Source: an uncultured Clostridia bacterium
Lineage (GTDB): Bacteria; Bacillota; Clostridia; TANB77; CAG-508
NCBI GenBank assembly: GCA_949388605.1
Contig: CASKJV010000008.1
Coordinates: 1-64,000 of the forward strand
Length of the DNA stretch: 64,000 nt
Reading direction: 5' to 3'
The notes under the pieces are model-generated. The model ran no database searches, was not told the origin of the DNA, and saw only the letters and a list, made by a program, of their open reading frames with translations. Below, one piece after another: positions 14,795 through 57,201 of this stretch. Position 1 is the first letter of the stretch. Every line of letters starts with the position of its first letter. A program made the translations under genes and the position numbers.

Positions 14795-16681
14795 TTATTT
14801 TGCATCTTTATTTGTATTTTTCTTTTTTTTAATTATAATTATAACAACATTTACTACAATTACTAATATTATCACAACTCCTATAGCTATTGGTAGTATA
14901 TCACCTGTATGTGGTATATTATTAATTTGTGTATTTATTTTGTTTTCTCCTTGATTTGCAACATTATTTGTTCCATTTTGTTGTTCTCCAATTGGAGTCC
15001 ATTTTGCATATAATGTAATATTATTTTCTGGTGTATATTCTTTAGCATTTATATCCATTACTTTATTTTGGCATTCTGCTTCTTTATACCATCCTTCAAA
15101 TTTATACCCTTCTCTTGTTGGAATAATAACTGATACAGTACTTGCTTTCCACACTGCATATAATATTTTTGTTTTTCCTTTTGTTAACTTAACTACATTT
15201 TGCTCATCATTATATAATTTTTCTTTACCTTTTTCCTCTGACCATCCAATAAAATTATATTTTGCTGTTTTATGTGATATATCAGCTCCTTCATAATTAT
15301 TACTAAATGTTACAGTATATTCTCTACTATATCCATTTTTATTTAATGTCTTTTCTTCATTATATTTATGAATACTATTATTAGTATTTCCTGTAGTGTT
15401 TCCATTTCCATCATATTTTATTGTATATGTAATTTCTTCGAAAGTTGCTGTGTATGTTATATCAGTATTAAAATTATTATCTACATATGGTATATCTATT
15501 ATTTCACCATTATCACTACGTTTCCATCCTGCAAACTTATATCCTGTTTCATTGTTAAGATTTTCTTCATCCCATAATATAGCTTTTGGTAAAAGATCTG
15601 TTTTATTACTCATTTCAGATTTACTTTTTCCTTGTGAACTCTTATATTTGTCATATTCAGGTAATATATAATTTGTTGCTTCACCAAAATCAAATGATAT
15701 AACTATACCTTTGAATAAATGTGCAGATGTTGAAAGTATAGTAGCTTTTTCTTCTAAATTATTTGTATTTATAAACTGAGCTGGCAAAAAAATTGATAGT
15801 CCAGTAGGTAATTTTGATGGTGCATATATTTCTTCTAATGCTGTACATTCATATAATACAGCATCTACATTGGTTACGTTACTCATGTCCCAATTACTTA
15901 AATTTAATGTTGTTAAACTACTGCAGTTCATGAACATTCTTCTCATATTTATTACATTACTTGTGTTCCAATTATTTAATTCTAATGTTGTTAGATTATT
16001 ACAACCATTAAACATATATTCCATATCTTTTACATTACTTGTGTTCCAATTATTTAAATCTAAAGTTTTTAAGCTTTTACAATTGTAAAACATATAACTC
16101 ATTTCTGTTACTTTTTCTACTTTAAAGTTTTCCAAACCAATAATTGACGTTAATTGTCTACAATTAGCAAACATAGAATTCGTAGCTTCTACCACACTTG
16201 TATCCCAATTATGTAAATCTAAAGTTTTTAAGCTTTTACAATTGTAAAACATATAATTCATTTGTGTTACTCTACTTGTATTTAAATAATTAATATTATT
16301 AATTGTTACAAGTTCTGTTAATCCCTGGAATAATTGTGTAGAAATATTAGGTGCATAAACTTCGTTTGCAAATGTAATAGTTTTAATGTTTTCTTTTCCA
16401 CAACTGTTCCAAAAAGCTTCTAAAACAAAATCAACAATAGTTCCTGTATCACTTGTACTAGAAATGGTAACTTCTCCTGTTGTACTATCAAAAGTAGCAT
16501 TTACATTCATACCCACAATTTGTGATATAGTTGGTTCTGCTAAAAAAGTTTTTCTAGAATTTGATGAAATTTCAAATTCTGTATTTGTTAATTTATACAT
16601 ACCAATCAACATTAAACATATTGATAGTAGTCCTAAAAATAAAAGTAATTTAAATCTTTCTTTTTTAACTATTTTATTCAC
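14795..16681 (-). CDS. BspA-family leucine-rich repeat surface protein with InlB B-repeats and IPHTG sortase-type C-terminal anchor
   Basis: 628 aa; repeated 'MSYMFYNCKSLKTLDLNNWNTSNVKDMEYMFNGCNNL' (BspA/DUF285), 'GYKFEGWYKEAECQNKV...LYAKWT', C-term 'NIPHTGDILPIAIGVVIILVIVVNVVIIIIKKKK'. Confidence 0.92.
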   Translation of the reverse strand: MNKIVKKERFKLLLFLGLLSICLMLIGMYKLTNTEFEISSNSRKTFLAEPTISQIVGMNVNATFDSTTGEVTISSTSDTGTIVDFVLEAFWNSCGKENIKTITFANEVYAPNISTQLFQGLTELVTINNINYLNTSRVTQMNYMFYNCKSLKTLDLHNWDTSVVEATNSMFANCRQLTSIIGLENFKVEKVTEMSYMFYNCKSLKTLDLNNWNTSNVKDMEYMFNGCNNLTTLELNNWNTSNVINMRRMFMNCSSLTTLNLSNWDMSNVTNVDAVLYECTALEEIYAPSKLPTGLSIFLPAQFINTNNLEEKATILSTSAHLFKGIVISFDFGEATNYILPEYDKYKSSQGKSKSEMSNKTDLLPKAILWDEENLNNETGYKFAGWKRSDNGEIIDIPYVDNNFNTDITYTATFEEITYTIKYDGNGNTTGNTNNSIHKYNEEKTLNKNGYSREYTVTFSNNYEGADISHKTAKYNFIGWSEEKGKEKLYNDEQNVVKLTKGKTKILYAVWKASTVSVIIPTREGYKFEGWYKEAECQNKVMDINAKEYTPENNITLYAKWTPIGEQQNGTNNVANQGENKINTQINNIPHTGDILPIAIGVVIILVIVVNVVIIIIKKKKNTNKDAK

Positions 16682-17345: not shown

Positions 17346-17506
17346 TAAATTTAAAATGATTTAAAGTTCAAAAAAAGAAGAGAACAAAAATGGAGAATAT
17401 TTAACCTGCAAAAAATAAAAATTTACTGAATTGTCTATGTCTTTGTTCGTGTACCATTTTTTTCCAACAGCTTCTATAATAGGATTTCCAAAGCAATTTC
17501 CTAAAA

Positions 17507-17545
17507 AAATCTTATTATGAATATCTATCATAATAAGATTTTTTA
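17507..17545 (-). terminator. Terminator hairpin of the 17549-21487 gene, paralogous to 14748-14790
   Basis: aaaatcttattatga..tcataataagatttttt. Confidence 0.8.
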
Positions 17546-17548
17546 ATT

Positions 17549-20500
17549 TTATTTTACATCTTCATTTGTATTTTTATTTTTCCTAATTACAATTATAACA
17601 ACATTTATTAAAATTGACACTAATATTATTGTTACTGCAAGTATTGGTAATACATCACCTGTATTTGGTATCATACTTGTCTCTAAATTATTTTCATTCA
17701 AATTAGTTTTAGTATTTAAACTACTATTTTTTACAATATTTTTATTAATATTATTTGTTTTATTGTTATTTTTTTCATTATTTCTGTTAGTATCATTTAT
17801 TTTATTGTTATTGTTATTATTATTGCTGTTGTTATCATTGTTGTTGTCATTGTCGTTGTCATTGTCGTTGTTATCATTGTTGTTGTTGTCATTGTTGTTG
17901 TCATTGTTGTTGTCGTCATTGTTGTTATCGTTATTGTCATTGTTATCGTTATTGTCATTGTTATCGTTGTTGTCATTGTTGTTGTCGTTGTCATTGTTGT
18001 TGTCGTTGTCATTGTTGTTGTCGTTGTTATCGTTGTTGTCATTATTATCTTCTTTTACAAAATATACTTCTATTACATTTTCGTCTTCTTTTTCAGTAAT
18101 CACTAAAGGTAGATTTAATATTTTTTCTACTTTATATCCTTCTAATGTGTTATTCTCAATATTTTCTGCTATCATATCTTTGGAGATTATTTCACCTACT
18201 GTTGTTTCTATATTCTCTGTTTTTTTATTATCCAAAATATTATCATAATAATATTCAATTTTATAATCTACTTTATTAACTTCTGTTTCTTCTGATACAT
18301 AATAAATACTAATTATCTCTCTATCTATTGCTGAATCTGGTATCTCTTTTGTATCATCTAATTTATACCCTTCATATTTGTTAGCTGGGGCTATTTGGTC
18401 TTTATCTATAATAATTTTTTGTTCTAACACTTGTATTTTAGCTTGTACTGTTTGTTCCTCTGCTTTTATTTCATCTTTATAATACTCTACCTTATAACTT
18501 ACATCTTTTTGTTGTTCTTCATCTATTACATAGTACACTTTAATTACTGTTTCAGGTTTTACTTCATTTGGTAGATTTTCAACCATATCGTTATCTAACT
18601 CTATTTTATCTAGTTTATACCCTCTATATTTGTTTAATGGTGCTACTTCTTCTTTATTTATAAGTATATTTTCTTCTAGTTCTTGTATTTTAGTTTCTAC
18701 TATTTGCTCATCTGCTTTTATTTCATCTTTATAATACTCTACCTTATAACTTACATCTTTTTGTTGTTCTTCATCTATTACATAGTACACTTTAATTACT
18801 GTTTCAGGTTTTACTTCATTTGGTAGATTTTCAACCATCTCGTTGTCTAACTCTATTTTATCTAGTTTATACCCTCTATATTTGTTTAATGGCGCTACTT
18901 CTTCTTTATTTATAAGTATATTTTCTTCTGATTCTTGTATTTTAGTTTCTACTATTTGCTCATCTGCTTTTATCTCATCTTTATAATACTCTATCTTATA
19001 ACTTACATCTTTTTGTTGTTCTATTGTATTTTTTACATAATATACTTGTACTATTCCTCCATTCGTTACTAATGATGGTATTTCTTTTGTATTATCTAAC
19101 TTATATCCATCATATTTATTGGCTGGAGCAATTATTGATTTATCTACATAAATATCGCTTTGTAATTGTGTTAATACTTGAATTACTTTTTGTTCTACTT
19201 TTACATTTTCTTTATAGTATTCTACTGTATAACTCAAACTTACATATGTAGGATTTTTTATATAATATACTCTTATTACATCGTTAGGTTTTACCCTATC
19301 TGGAATTGTACTATCAAGATTTAACCTATATCCTGCGTATTTATTTAATGGTGCTATTTCATTTTTATTTATAGGAATATAATCATCTAATCCTGTAATT
19401 ACAGTTGTTATTGTTTTTTCCTCTTCTATATATGCATTTTTATAATATATTACTTTATAATTATATTGTTTTAAATCATAAGTTACTTCTACTTGTATAT
19501 TTTCTGTAATATTTTTAAGTTGCAATATATATGTATCATCTTCATTTGCTTCAAATGGACATTCTTCTCCATTAATTTTAATACTAACAATTTCGTAATG
19601 TTTATTTGGAGTCATAATAATTTCTTTTGTACAATCATCTTGATATTTTACACTTTCATATACTTCATCATTACTTCCAGAAATAGTTCCACCTTCTCCA
19701 TTTACTGAAGTTTTTATTGTATAAGTTTTTCTTTCATTGTTTACTCTTAATTCAGGTACTTCTGGAATTGCAGTATCTACACTTTCCTCACTTATTTTTA
19801 TATATGTAGCTTGTCCTCCAGAAGCATTTTCATAACCAGCTAATATGTATGAATTATCACTTATTGTTGCTACATCGTAAAAAATTTCATCATTAGTATA
19901 TCCAAATTCTTGTGCCCATTCTAGTTTTCCTTCTGCATTTACTTTTGCTGCTATACCTATAGAACTTCCTTTATTAGTTGATACTGGTGTTGTTTTTATA
20001 TCATATCCTGATTCTGTATTTCTTCCTATTTCTTGTAAGTTTCCTTGACTTGATGTTCCTGCTAAAATTATTCCATTGTCTCTAGTTAAATCCATATTAT
20101 AGAAATCATCATTTCCAGTTCCACCTATATCTCTTGCCCATTCTATTTTTAAATCAGGTGTTATTTTCATAACAAAACCGTCTGTACCACCTTTTGATGT
20201 TAATTCTATTGGTTTTCCTGATTTTGTATCTTCTCCTGGAAAGCTTATTGTTCCTGAGAATATACCTGCATAATATATTTCTCCATTTTGTCCTTTTTGT
20301 AGATTATGTATTTTATGATTATCATCATTATATCCACTTTCTGCTTTTGTATCTAAAAAGTCTTTTACTTGTAAAGTTTCTTTATCTACTAATAATATTA
20401 CAAACTTACTGTCCCCAATAGTTGTTTTTTTACCTGCTCTATCTGTAATTTCTTGTGAACCTACATATGCACTTATTAAATATCCTTCTTCTGTATCTAT

Positions 20501-21487
20501 AATACTATAAGCATACTCATTTTCTGTTCCTGATATTGTGCCTTCTCCTACTCCATATTCACTTCCGTCATTAATTTTATTAAAATTCGAATCAAATTTA
20601 TCTATAAATAGTTTGTTATTATCATTATCTCCATAATCTCCAAACCAAATATAGTTTCCATCAGAATCTATTGTAAATGCTTCATAAGCTGTATTATTAA
20701 TGCGATTATGTTCAGATAACTTATTACCATTATCATCATATCTTCTTATTCTACGTCTATATAAACAATCAATTCTATTTTCGCCTAATTCTATCTGTCT
20801 AATAATTCCACTATCACCTTCTAATTCATTTATACTTTTTGTCCAAGCTATAGTATTATCTGCATTAATGAAAGAAAGATTATTGTTATGATATAACACA
20901 CTAGTTCCATCTTCTCTTCCATCGATTGCATAATCAAAGACTTTTTTTCCTGCACTTGTAGTATATACTGGATTTTCTGCAATTATATTAGTACTGTTAT
21001 TTCTACTATCGTTTACTCCAATAGTCCAAATTTTATTTTCTTCATTTACTGAGTATCCATAACCTGTATTTATTTGTTGTATTTCATAAATACCCGGTTT
21101 CAAATTTGCAATCATTTCGCCATTTTCATTTGTTTCAAAAACTCTACAAATTTCTCCATTTATAGTTTCTTCTACACCTAAAACATTTCCCTCTTCATCT
21201 GTTGGATTTGAATAACTTTTTTGTTCTTCTGCAAATATTACTTCTTTTATAATGAATTTAGCATTACTAATTGCATAATCTCTATCATCTTTTAATATTA
21301 TTTTAAACAAATCATCTTCTGCCGTTTGTATCTCTTTAGGTAATTTTGTTATTTCTCTATTGGTTTCAGTAATAATTATTTTGGAGTCTCTATAAAAAAT
21401 TAAACATATTACTATAATTATAAATATTAATAATAATCTAAATATTGACTTTTTTACATTTTTATTTATCTCGATTACTTTTTTCAT
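17549..21487 (-). CDS. Large modular surface protein: SpaA-like N-terminal domain, delta-60-like repeats, MucBP-like repeats, Asn/Asp linker, IPNTG sortase-type anchor
   Basis: 1312 aa; 'YKVEYYKDEIKADEQIVETKIQ...APLNKYRGYKLDK...VKPETVIKVYYV' repeats; (N/D)n tract; C-term 'SMIPNTGDVLPILAVTIILVSILINVVIIVIRKNK'. Confidence 0.9.
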   Translation of the reverse strand: MKKVIEINKNVKKSIFRLLLIFIIIVICLIFYRDSKIIITETNREITKLPKEIQTAEDDLFKIILKDDRDYAISNAKFIIKEVIFAEEQKSYSNPTDEEGNVLGVEETINGEICRVFETNENGEMIANLKPGIYEIQQINTGYGYSVNEENKIWTIGVNDSRNNSTNIIAENPVYTTSAGKKVFDYAIDGREDGTSVLYHNNNLSFINADNTIAWTKSINELEGDSGIIRQIELGENRIDCLYRRRIRRYDDNGNKLSEHNRINNTAYEAFTIDSDGNYIWFGDYGDNDNNKLFIDKFDSNFNKINDGSEYGVGEGTISGTENEYAYSIIDTEEGYLISAYVGSQEITDRAGKKTTIGDSKFVILLVDKETLQVKDFLDTKAESGYNDDNHKIHNLQKGQNGEIYYAGIFSGTISFPGEDTKSGKPIELTSKGGTDGFVMKITPDLKIEWARDIGGTGNDDFYNMDLTRDNGIILAGTSSQGNLQEIGRNTESGYDIKTTPVSTNKGSSIGIAAKVNAEGKLEWAQEFGYTNDEIFYDVATISDNSYILAGYENASGGQATYIKISEESVDTAIPEVPELRVNNERKTYTIKTSVNGEGGTISGSNDEVYESVKYQDDCTKEIIMTPNKHYEIVSIKINGEECPFEANEDDTYILQLKNITENIQVEVTYDLKQYNYKVIYYKNAYIEEEKTITTVITGLDDYIPINKNEIAPLNKYAGYRLNLDSTIPDRVKPNDVIRVYYIKNPTYVSLSYTVEYYKENVKVEQKVIQVLTQLQSDIYVDKSIIAPANKYDGYKLDNTKEIPSLVTNGGIVQVYYVKNTIEQQKDVSYKIEYYKDEIKADEQIVETKIQESEENILINKEEVAPLNKYRGYKLDKIELDNEMVENLPNEVKPETVIKVYYVIDEEQQKDVSYKVEYYKDEIKADEQIVETKIQELEENILINKEEVAPLNKYRGYKLDKIELDNDMVENLPNEVKPETVIKVYYVIDEEQQKDVSYKVEYYKDEIKAEEQTVQAKIQVLEQKIIIDKDQIAPANKYEGYKLDDTKEIPDSAIDREIISIYYVSEETEVNKVDYKIEYYYDNILDNKKTENIETTVGEIISKDMIAENIENNTLEGYKVEKILNLPLVITEKEDENVIEVYFVKEDNNDNNDNNDNNNDNDNNNDNDNNNDNNDNNDNNDNNDNNDNNNDDNNNDNNNDNNNNDNNDNDNDNDNNNDNNSNNNNNNNKINDTNRNNEKNNNKTNNINKNIVKNSSLNTKTNLNENNLETSMIPNTGDVLPILAVTIILVSILINVVIIVIRKNKNTNEDVK
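17770..18050 (-). repeat. Trinucleotide-type low-complexity repeat encoding a poly-Asn/Asp linker
   Basis: Runs of gttgtcattgtt... on plus strand; encodes NDNNDNNDNNNDNDNNNDND... Confidence 0.95.
18459..18962 (-). repeat. 252-bp near-identical tandem repeat (84-aa MucBP-like unit), further diverged units alongside
   Basis: 'tctgcttttat(t/c)tcatctttataatactct' at 18459, 18711 and 18963. Confidence 0.9.
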
Positions 21488-21697: not shown

Positions 21698-21859
21698 GAA
21701 CAAAAGTGGACGATATGATAATTACAAAATACAAAAATTTACTAAATCGTCCTCGTATTTGTTCGAAGCACCAATTTTGTTGTACAAAATTGTGTGCGAA
21801 AATTAGAGAAGCTTTTATTGAGTAGGAAGTGCAGAGTACTTTCCTACTCAATAAAAAAA
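21698..21859. repeat. Intergenic structured repeat, copy A
   Basis: gaacaaaagtggacgatatgataattacaaaatacaaaaatttactaaatcgtcc...agcttttattgagtaggaagtgcagagtactttcctactcaataaaaaaa; shared with 42239-42399 and 49657-49786. Confidence 0.9.
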
Positions 21860-21908
21860 GCAGTATAATCAAAATTGATTATACTGCTTGTGCACAAATA
21901 TAGTTTCT

Positions 21909-23051
21909 CTATATTTTAAATTCAAATTTCTTTTTATTACTGTATTCAATAAAATTCATTACTACTAGCTTTATAAATGCAATTACTGGAACTCCTAAAA
22001 ACATTCCTATAACTCCAAAATAACTTCCCCCAACAGTAACTGCGAAAATAACTAATATTGGGCTTAAATTTAATGATGTTCCTAATATTTTTGGATTAAT
22101 TATATTAGCATCAATTTGTTGTAATATTACAATAACTATTCCAACTGCAATTGCTTTTGCAAATCCACTTGTGAATATTGTAATTATAATTGTTAATATA
22201 ACTGCAAATATTGCTCCAAAATATGGAATGATGTTAAATACTCCAACTAAGAATCCTAGTAATATTCCATATTTTACTTTCATAATAGCTAATGCAATTC
22301 CTATAATAAATCCTACTACTATTGCATCTATAATTTGTCCCGAAATATAACTAAAGAAAATACTATTAGTTTTTCTTAAATATTTAGCAATTGCATTATT
22401 TATTTTCTTAGAAAATGCTACATTTGATAAATTTGTAAAAAAGCTTTTTATGTCGTCTCTTTCTAATAACATATATACTGATACTACAATAGTTACAAAT
22501 ATATCAAATATTATGCTTGTAGCACCTACTATTCCTTGAATATATGAATTTATATTTTCTAAATCTATCCAACTTACTATTCCTTTTAAAATATCAACTT
22601 TTTCAAGTTCTTTTATATAATCATTAACTTTAATTTTTGATAAGATTGAATCTTCATCTAGACTATCGAAATATTCTAATGCACTATTATAATAGTTTGG
22701 TATATTAGCTACTAAATCTTTCACACTAGTAATTACATTTGGTATTACAAAATTAATAATTATAAAAATTATTAATATTGCAATTAAATATGTACAAAAT
22801 ACACCTAACCCACGTGCATGCTTATTTAAAAACCTTATTTTGCACGATTTTATTGAATTTTCTATTCCCTTACATGGAATATATAATATATATGCAACTA
22901 ATATTGCCATTAAAAATGGTGCTATTACACTAAAAAATCCATTAAATATTCCAAAAATAGAAGATACACTACTTATTACTTTATAAACTAATATAATTGC
23001 TACTGCAAAGGAAAACCAATACAGCCATTTTCTCCATTCCTTTTTATTCAT
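21909..23051 (-). CDS. AI-2E family transporter (YtvI/PerM-like permease)
   Basis: 380 aa, multiple TMs; 'GILLGFLVGVFNIIPYFGAIFAVIL', 'ILQQIDANIINPKILGTSLNLSPILVIFAVTVGG'. Confidence 0.9.
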   Translation of the reverse strand: MNKKEWRKWLYWFSFAVAIILVYKVISSVSSIFGIFNGFFSVIAPFLMAILVAYILYIPCKGIENSIKSCKIRFLNKHARGLGVFCTYLIAILIIFIIINFVIPNVITSVKDLVANIPNYYNSALEYFDSLDEDSILSKIKVNDYIKELEKVDILKGIVSWIDLENINSYIQGIVGATSIIFDIFVTIVVSVYMLLERDDIKSFFTNLSNVAFSKKINNAIAKYLRKTNSIFFSYISGQIIDAIVVGFIIGIALAIMKVKYGILLGFLVGVFNIIPYFGAIFAVILTIIITIFTSGFAKAIAVGIVIVILQQIDANIINPKILGTSLNLSPILVIFAVTVGGSYFGVIGMFLGVPVIAFIKLVVMNFIEYSNKKKFEFKI

Positions 23052-42238: not shown

Positions 42239-42399
42239 AGAACAAAAGTGGACGATATGATAATTACAAAATACAAAAATTTACTAAATCGTCCACGTAT
42301 TTGTTCGAAGTCGTGATTTTGTTGTACAAAATAGTGCACAAAAATTAGCGAAGCTTTTATTTAGTAGGAAGTGCAAAACACTTTCCTACTAAATAAAAA
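42239..42399. repeat. Intergenic structured repeat, copy B
   Basis: agaacaaaagtggacgatatgataattacaaaatacaaaaatttactaaatcgtccacg...agcttttatttagtaggaagtgcaaaacactttcctactaaataaaaaaa. Confidence 0.9.
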
Positions 42400-42445
42400 A
42401 AATGAACAAAATGTTCATTTTTTCCGTTCATAATTGTTCATTTTC

Positions 42446-43273
42446 TTATAGAAAATATTGATATATCTCATTTTTACTTACTTTTCTATCTTTAGCAATT
42501 CTTTTTATTATTTCCTTTTTATCTAATCCCTGTGATTTGTATAAATTATAATGTTCTTCTAAAGATAAATTATTTAGATTATCTAATTCAATATCTTTTT
42601 TTGATACTGAACTTCCTTCAATTAGAATAACAAATTCTCCTTTTATATCTTCTATCCTTTTTAAAATATCACTTACTTTTCCTCTTATAAATTCCTCATG
42701 AATCTTAGTTAATTCTCTTGCTAAAACAACATTTCTATCTCCTAATATTTCAAAAATTTGCTCTAATGTACTTTTTAACTTATGTGGAGCTTCATATAAA
42801 ATCACAGTTTTTGTTTCATATTTTATTTCTTCTAATTTTTCTTTTTTCTCTTTTTTTACTGCAGATAGAAATCCAATAAATGTAAATTCTTTTGTTGATA
42901 ATCCAGATACAATTAGAGCATTTATTAAAGCGCAAGCTCCTGGTATAGGTATAATTTCAATATTATTTTCTATTGCTACTCTTACAATCTCTTCACCTGG
43001 ATCTGATATTCCTGGTGTTCCTGCATCAGAAACAATAGCAATATTTTTGCCTTCTCTTAATTTCTCTATTAATACTTCACTCCTAGCTTTTTCTGTTTGT
43101 TTATAATAACTAATTAATGGCTTAGAAATTTCAAAATGATTTAACAATCCTAAAGTATGTCTTGTATCTTCTGCTGCAATTAAATCTACTTCTCTTAAAA
43201 CATTTAATGCTCTAATTGTTATATCTTCTAGGTTTCCAATTGGTGTTGCAACTAAATATAATTTTCCTGACAT
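42446..43273 (-). CDS. rsmI: 16S rRNA (cytidine(1402)-2'-O)-methyltransferase
   Basis: 275 aa; 'LYLVATPIGNLEDITIRAL', 'AAEDTRHT', 'VSDAGTPGISDPGEE'. Confidence 0.95.
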   Translation of the reverse strand: MSGKLYLVATPIGNLEDITIRALNVLREVDLIAAEDTRHTLGLLNHFEISKPLISYYKQTEKARSEVLIEKLREGKNIAIVSDAGTPGISDPGEEIVRVAIENNIEIIPIPGACALINALIVSGLSTKEFTFIGFLSAVKKEKKEKLEEIKYETKTVILYEAPHKLKSTLEQIFEILGDRNVVLARELTKIHEEFIRGKVSDILKRIEDIKGEFVILIEGSSVSKKDIELDNLNNLSLEEHYNLYKSQGLDKKEIIKRIAKDRKVSKNEIYQYFL

Positions 43274-49505: not shown

Positions 49506-49656
49506 TTATATTCCTAGTTCTATTAAAACATTTTTGAAGAAGCAAACTAATATAATAATATAAAAGAAAACTTTTAATTATATTTGCTTTATCCACATAA
49601 TCAAAAATCCCCTCATGCATTTTAAATAAGTTTAATTGGCTTGCCTTTCCTCTGTA

Positions 49657-49786
49657 TCCAAAAATTTATTAAATCGTCCACATATTTGTTCGAAGTGCCG
49701 ATTTGCTTGTACAAAATTGCGTGCAACAATTAGCAAAGCTTTTATTTAGTAGGAAGTGAAGAGCACTTTCCTACTAAATAAAAAAA
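49657..49786. repeat. Intergenic structured repeat, copy C (5' truncated)
   Basis: ccaaaaatttattaaatcgtccacatatttgttcgaagtgccgattt...agcttttatttagtaggaagtgaagagcactttcctactaaataaaaaaa. Confidence 0.88.
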
Positions 49787-49809
49787 TAGCACAGCGAACT
49801 GTGCTATTT

Positions 49810-49902
49810 TGGCGGAGATTGAGGGATTTGAACCCTCGCGGCCACTTACGCAACCCTAACGGTTTAGCAAACCGTCCCCTTCAGCCACTTGGGTAAATCT
49901 CC
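49810..49902 (-). tRNA. tRNA-Ser(GCT), CCA encoded
   Basis: GGAGATT acceptor stem/AATCTCC, anticodon loop TTGCTAA, long class II variable arm, GGGTTCAAATCCC T-arm, 3' GCCA. Confidence 0.95.
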
Positions 49903-53644: not shown

Positions 53645-54123
53645 AGTAAATCCCTCCTTTTTTATCCATATTATAATATAAAAAATTAAGGCATATGTCA
53701 ATGTGTTTTAAAGAACAAATCTGAATTTTTTTCATTTTCATCCTATTTTTTTATATATTTAATTTATGAAATAAATGTGTGGGTAAATACTAGTGCAATC
53801 CATTGTTTAATTGAAATTTAGATAATTTTTTATTAAATAACAAAATAGCCACCTTTAATATTCTTTAAATTTTTAAATATATTTAACTAGTTCGTCTTTC
53901 CTCCATATAACTTACTTGTAGTTTGCTTCTCTCACACAGTTAAAAAATGTTTGATACGCCAATTAGCATAGTAAGCTTGCTGCAATATTAGTTCAAGAAT
54001 TTATATTATAGAAATTGTGGAGCAATTTCCTATATTACAAAAAAACAATAATGTAATTCAAATATTTTTCATTACACTATTGTTTTCTATATTAATATCA
54101 TAAATGTTTTTTGTGGAACAATT

Positions 54124-56934: not shown

Positions 56935-57201
56935 TTTAATACTATTCCTCTCTTTAATTTGCTATTACTTGTTTCACCACTTGCAAATCAAAAAACATAT
57001 ATGGGCAATATCTGATTTGCAAAAGATAAAATTACTTTATCTAATTATTCATATATTTCTTCTATATAACTTATTTTTAAATTAGTTTAGCAATAAATTA
57101 TTTTTTTACTCAGTAAACAAATTTTAATTAATTTATATAACAATAAAAATTAATTAAAGTTTAATAACATTAAATCACAATTTTGCTAACTTTTTTGTAA
57201 T

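Follow-up and report, generated by a model that had tools for sequence, protein, structure and literature searches.

A modular, structured repeat in fixed polarity behind intrinsic terminators of uncultured Clostridia

Results

The 64-kb stretch of DNA analysed here, referred to as the window, contains five copies (A to E) of a structured intergenic repeat:

21698 to 21859, plus strand: copy A, full length (model positions 1-161; cmsearch 183.7 bits, E 3.5e-39)
42240 to 42402, plus strand: copy B, full length (176.8 bits), followed by the hairpin tgaacaaaatgttca of the minus-strand gene 42446-43273
49624 to 49786, plus strand: copy C (100.9 bits), right 130 bases intact, left part degenerate or replaced
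17382 to 17516, plus strand: copy D (58.4 bits, E 4.3e-11), partly degenerate; right neighbour, the hairpin tcttattatg...cataataaga of the minus-strand gene 17549-21487
about 53713 to 54046, plus strand: copy E, two degenerate units in tandem, of which the second has module X (see below); right neighbour, the hairpin of the minus-strand gene 54124-54843

Copies A and B are 90% identical across 162 bases (blastn). In copy C the covariance model still covers 49624-49785, and this is therefore not a mere cut-off copy. The model match in copy E (28.8 bits) spans 53945-54044 only, the remainder being assigned by reading the sequence. A first-pass annotation had located copies A and C where they are found here and had begun copy B at 42239, one base ahead of its actual start; its three copies are real, but D and E had been overlooked and were found by the covariance model. 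The motif it had listed as shared, AAATCGTCCNCNTATTTGTTCGAAG, was counted three times in the window, the expectation from shuffles being 0.00. The gene to the right of copy D (17549-21487, minus strand) encodes a 1312-amino-acid cell-surface-like protein whose C-terminal membrane anchor is preceded by a long, low-complexity Asn/Asp tract, and a shorter relative of this protein lies at 14795-16681.

A genome-wide search by blastn and covariance model, which the first-pass annotation had proposed, returned many further copies: the host genome (G000) holds 44 non-redundant places by blastn and at least 55 model matches. Within the genus the element is present in 20 of 53 genomes, with 0 to at least 55 copies each (none in 33 of 53). 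Thirteen further genomes of the genus carry from 6 to at least 55 copies each by model search, and copy-rich relatives include G034 (49 copies), G031 (40) and G015 (31). When the order was sampled evenly, the element turned up in 64 of 243 genomes and in 18 of 40 genera, and all among the matches listed lie in one taxonomic family. A degenerate pattern run on GTDB contigs matched uncultured Clostridium or Clostridia assemblies only. Carriage by phages or plasmids was rejected, as blastn gave no match to the repeat in phage and plasmid collections, and of two patterns run on IMG/VR one had no match and the other matched four contigs, none with the element by model. All genomes appear to be metagenome assemblies.

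The fold was described by a covariance model built from 38 full copies out of seven genomes (alignment A1, genus level). In copy A it comprises:

21698 to 21765, plus strand: helix H1, outer stem GAACAAA/TTTGTTC and inner stem GTGGACGAT/ATCGTCCTC, with one mismatch in A (alignment A1 pair counts)
21769 to 21798, plus strand: helix H2, GCACCAATTTTG...CAAAATTGTGTGC, a slot that holds another module in other copies
21806 to 21815, plus strand: mini-hairpin H4, three pairs, AGAGAAGC in A and AGC-GAA-GCT, GGC-GTAA-GCC or GCC-GAA-GGC elsewhere
21814 to 21855, plus strand: helix H3, the long 3' hairpin

In the majority of copies the inner H1 stem reads GTGGACGAT/ATCGTCCAC. H1 was added by eye to the RNAalifold structure, and the H1 part of the model leans on this manual reading. 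The folding z-score for H1 and H2 of copy A together is -4.34. H3 contains the G-C pair flagged in the first-pass annotation as a compensatory change, TTGAGTAGG/CCTACTCAA in A against TTTAGTAGG/CCTACTAAA in B and C; the change is real and is one among very many. The 5' foot of H3 in copy A pairs with the first A's of the A-tract.

Base pairing in the repeat is strongly conserved. In A1, 94.4% of cells pair, compared with 88.5 ± 0.3% after shuffling, both sides have changed at 25 of 53 pairs, H4 shows double changes at all three of its pairs, and the covariation score is 0.204, against 0.097 for shuffled and at most 0.065 for slid versions. A second alignment, A2, holds copies from other genera fitted to the model, and is hence biased in its favour; there, double compensatory changes occur at 42 of 53 pairs, 95.9% of cells pair (75.7% shuffled), and the score is 0.387 (0.100 shuffled; 0.027-0.070 slid). 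Across the genus and family alignments together, slid controls score 0.025-0.070. Many of the swaps are from A-U to U-A, with intermediates absent. On the plus strand, G.U exceed A.C cells by 54 to 15 in A2, where 25 of the G.U come from one site (29 to 15 without it), and by 89 to 46 in A1 (62 to 46 without the equivalent site). This excess points, although not strongly, to the plus strand as the strand that may be active, either as RNA or as single-stranded DNA. A weak model match to H1 only (E 0.027) at 56994-57061, between two minus-strand genes, is possibly a decayed copy.

A known RNA family was rejected, as Rfam 15 at the gathering threshold matched only tRNAs in the window, and the best matches at a relaxed threshold (E 0.34-3.2) were all below gathering. 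The view of the first-pass annotation, a novel structured intergenic repeat with covariation, holds: further copies exist, covariation is above both shuffled and slid controls, and the repeat falls into no known Rfam or MITE family. That picture is extended here by mobility, terminator docking, modularity and a family-wide range.

The repeat sits directly behind the stop signals of opposite-strand genes, in one fixed polarity. At copies A and C the following were identified:

21853 to 21859, minus strand: A-tract of copy A, which read on this strand is the T-tract of the terminator of gene 21909-23051 (terminator scan)
21858 to 21889, minus strand: intrinsic terminator hairpin abutting copy A, 14 pairs then TTTTT, belonging to minus-strand gene 21909-23051
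49783 to 49810, minus strand: terminator of two tRNA-Ser genes at copy C, a scan call whose T-tail enters the copy

The T-tails of both scan-called terminators run into the copies; for 21858-21889 the scan found one terminator against 0.1 expected. At copy B, tgaacaaaatgttca fails the G+C rule of the scan. The first-pass annotation had concluded that the hairpin is no canonical terminator on either strand, and for the 3' hairpin of the repeat itself this holds. The A-tract had been correctly noted without its meaning being seen: read from the minus strand, it forms the T-tract of the adjoining canonical terminator.

A right-hand gene could be called for 39 copies in the host genome, and for 37 of these it is encoded on the opposite strand; one of the two exceptions adjoins an apparent RNase P RNA on the opposite strand. 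tRNA genes act as right neighbour at copy C and at two other sites. The hairpin beyond the closing A-tract differs from site to site. Over the 40 bases right of the element, median folding energy is -10.2 kcal/mol in G000 and -7.0 in other genomes, compared with -1.5 for the left flank, -1.8 after other A-runs and -1.7 for random positions (p = 2.5e-22). A looser stem count puts a stem in 73 of 88 right flanks, in 36 of 88 left flanks and in 27% of the sequences that follow other A-runs. Among copies from other genera, a folding energy of -5 or lower was reached by 18 of 26 flanks on the right and by 7 of 26 on the left. The stretch between element and hairpin is six or seven A's long in 61 of 88 right ends. 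Because the young copies L134, L135 and L155 have no clear hairpin at the right end, the terminator hairpin may be a strong preference rather than a rule, favoured and perhaps not required. Apart from group IIC introns, we know of no other element with the terminator T-tract as its target. A conserved CTATTATA left of some copies was considered as a promoter and dropped; only the A at -1 is strongly conserved, and promoter matches are near background.

Empty sites indicate mobility. At locus B the orthologous site in 20 other genomes contains no element by model (a degenerate copy was seen by eye in G031), and many of these sites read as A-tract plus hairpin. At locus C, relatives have no element 3' of tRNA-Ser; G012, for instance, reads TATAAAAAAGCAATACTACAGAAGTATTGC there, and G032 reads TATAAAAAAAAGAAACAGTACAAAAATAATACTGTTTC. 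A run of A6-A9 ahead of the hairpin is also found in empty orthologous sites of both loci. The junctions are not base-exact, since the nearest orthologous flanks are about 80% identical. The left flank ends in A for 59 of 62 copies. The simplest reconstruction would have the element enter the A-tract one or two bases in from the tract's far end (...TATA^AAAAAA-hairpin), which would make the A-tract part of the target. This is supported by head-to-tail arrays, which have AACAAA followed by a further A common to the junction: inner junctions read AAATAACAAAAGTGG, whereas the last unit of the arrays on contig C7 reads AAATAAAAAA and is followed by the hairpin. Two sites, L134 and L135, carry identical elements, and several nearly identical ones occur in G016; activity is or was therefore recent. 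The ends of the repeat, GAACAAAAGTGG and CTAAATAAAAAA, are not complementary, and a search of them for terminal inverted repeats found none; such repeats would be expected of a MITE derived from a DDE transposon. In the flanks of young copies, read without a base-exact empty site, there is no target duplication beyond a few AT bases.

The element is modular, with inner hairpins swapped or inserted. In G064, G034, G023 and G063 module X (CATAACTTATCTGTAG...CACAGCTAAGAAATG) occupies the H2 slot or the junction after H1, sometimes with an extra hairpin nested in its loop. In some copies the inner part of H1 is exchanged wholesale while GAACAA/TTGTTC is kept, in some the loops of H2 and H3 are inverted, and in some subfamilies GAACAAA is repeated at both ends. 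Fragments resembling module X (CTTTCCTCTGTATAACTTATCTGTA) occur in the left flanks of L004, L029, L033, L008 and L003, which suggests decayed upstream units or a separate repeat. L060 and L067 (G029) are short internal-deletion forms joined at TACTAAAT, a sequence common to H1 and H3.

No mobilising enzyme was found among the reverse transcriptase (RT), Y1, Y2 and TnpB families searched. RVT_1 had no match in G034, G031, G015 and G063 of the genus or in G181, G191, G205 and G241 of the order sample, and Y1_Tnp had none in G034, G031 and G063. Y2_Tnp was found in G010, G069 and G017 only, hence in no copy-rich genome, and TnpB was above cut-off in G058, G031, G017 and G020 only, of which only G031 is copy-rich. 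Each of RT, Y1, Y2 and TnpB is absent from copy-rich genomes that are nearly complete; any single absence could be an assembly gap, and jointly the absences argue against any of these enzymes alone as a resident mover. Run on 35 loci, mostly of Y1 transposases and RTs, the model gave nothing convincing (best E 0.016, inside a transposase match).

Individual partners were rejected accordingly: RAYT/IS200, whose ends are unrelated, whose enzyme is absent from copy-rich genomes and whose RAYT gene is flanked by different repeats; IS91-type Y2 and TnpB, which are absent from nearly all copy-rich genomes; and RT, which is present in some genomes with the repeat and absent from others. In G016 one copy (L163) adjoins an RT; this RT looks like a diversity-generating one from a phage, and its position was taken as coincidence. 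Several other mobile or RT loci were seen. G000:C5:37162-37494 (L073, 1105-1869) is a single RAYT-type Y1 transposase gene with its own inverted repeat, GACCAATTGGGGACGTTAG...CTAACGTCCCCAATTGGTC, unrelated to the repeat. L079 and L102 (G016) are IS200-type elements, and in L079 the left end directly follows the T-tract of a tRNA terminator, which may reflect the same safe-harbour habit. L071 (G000:C2:8224-11832) has an RT beside an ORF resembling the variable protein of a diversity-generating retroelement, and L072 (G000:C12:22600-26244) encodes at 1156-2484 a 442-amino-acid stand-alone RT-like protein, perhaps of a defence type.

Discussion

The genomes contain a repeated, folded and modular element of fixed polarity, adjacent to terminators, with empty sites, identical copies and tandem arrays. 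It is probably a mobile, structured element that is non-autonomous: an enzyme would move it in trans, and terminator T-tracts would be its insertion sites. Such an element, about 145-230 bases long and encoding no protein, would be recognised by its fold, in which a long 3' hairpin follows the conserved outer stem (GAACAA/TTGTTC) and at least one exchangeable inner hairpin. New copies would enter the far end of an intrinsic terminator T-tract, six or seven bases past the terminator hairpin and close to the end of transcription. The 3' hairpin would always face the terminator, which would leave the copy antisense behind the gene and the gene undamaged. One strand, folded as RNA or single-stranded DNA, would be the mobile substrate; the terminator hairpin would help to choose the site, and the trans-acting enzyme would perform the insertion.

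As no RT tracks the element, we lean towards single-stranded DNA over RNA as the substrate. A hairpin-reading nuclease or recombinase could act on it in trans, much as for IS200/IS605-derived or REP elements, and the 5' foot of H3 would pair to the target as a guide does; we regard this as a serious though still tentative possibility. Hairpins lie at both ends, and the foot complements adjoining sequence in many copies (TTTT/AAAA, TGTT/AACA, TGAT/ATCA), a pairing that would suit a guide, although it is mismatched in others (C36:2983, C7:50087). Tandem arrays, strand asymmetry and the inverted H2 and H3 loops of some copies are also in keeping with it. Against this, Y1_Tnp is missing from G034, G031 and G063, Y2_Tnp from every copy-rich genome and TnpB from nearly all, and the ends of resident IS200 and RAYT elements are unrelated.

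A SINE-like retroposon, in which the A-tract of the plus-strand RNA anneals to the 3' end of the terminator T-tract and an RT acting in trans copies from there, is rather unlikely. It would fit the A-rich 3' end set against a T-tract, the fixed polarity with neither inverted repeats nor evident duplication, the plus-strand G.U excess and the many copies with an intact 3' end and a degenerate or missing 5' part, although in several of these the seeming truncation is a 5' part that was replaced or has diverged. The same kind of target is used by one class of retroelements, the group IIC introns (PMC4424553, PMC10190682). However, RVT_1 is absent from G034, G031 and G015, which are copy-rich and nearly complete, and from G181, G205, G241 and G191; by eye, the RTs in G000 and G016 resemble diversity-generating (phage) or defence types; and the A-tract appears to derive from the target. 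We consider it unlikely that the element is the bacterial equivalent of a SINE: an RNA retroposon found throughout the family and encoding no protein, with an A-tailed RNA that an RT, acting in trans or only transiently present, copies into the chromosome starting at the T-tract end of intrinsic terminators.

It seems improbable that a tyrosine or serine recombinase joins a double-stranded circle to the A-tract by site-specific recombination. Tandem arrays and GAACAAA at both ends in some subfamilies would follow from integration of such a circle, and no target duplication is evident, but this route alone explains neither the strong pressure on base pairing nor the hairpin beside the site. A host RNA or 3' regulatory element kept for terminator function and not mobile would have the strict position and strong structural conservation seen, but is very improbable given the patchy presence (20 of 53 species), empty orthologous sites, arrays, many decayed copies and swapped modules.

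Small structured repeats are common in bacteria, and the movers of many are not known. The repeat described here belongs to this known kind, the small structured interspersed repeat. A literature search for an earlier description returned only BOX, SPRITE, MITE reviews and group IIC papers. IS200/IS605-derived repeats and RAYT-REPs share with it hairpin ends, one polarity and the lack of inverted repeats, and they make no duplication, of which none is evident here, but no transposase with matching ends is present and some copy-rich genomes lack Y1. The bcr1 repeat of Bacillus cereus is about 155 bp, structured and mobile, and makes target duplications; its similarity in size, structure and mobility is one of description.

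By organisation the closest relative is pneumococcal BOX, and by target the group IIC introns; the repeat is a member of neither, as it lacks the inverted ends of the former and the ribozyme and RT of the latter. In the passages of PMC3049150 that deal with them, the BOX elements of Streptococcus pneumoniae are small, intergenic, modular (boxA-boxB-boxC) structured repeats of about 100 copies, thought to be parasitic, and BOX and RUP have terminal inverted repeats and target duplications. The modular, structured and intergenic character is common to both, with swapped and nested hairpin modules here; by that description, our repeat is set apart by the lack of inverted ends and by duplication not being seen, and the same passages describe no docking at terminator T-tracts for BOX. 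SPRITE of S. pneumoniae is likewise a small terminator-linked repeat, but according to these passages is itself terminator-like (PMC3049150), whereas our repeat lies behind a site-specific host terminator outside it. Group IIC introns insert at intrinsic terminators beside a DNA stem-loop (PMC4424553, PMC10190682), a likeness in target; in contrast, our repeat has no ribozyme or Rfam group II match and, at about 160 bases, is too short for an RT gene.

In this repeat, pairing preserved through hundreds of compensatory changes goes together with module swapping and with one-polarity docking at T-tracts. Annotation pipelines could mistake the repeat for a small RNA or for part of a terminator. 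It provides a clean case for how a folded, protein-less element without inverted ends finds the end of transcription, and suggests that mobile DNA may generally find a safe harbour at terminators.
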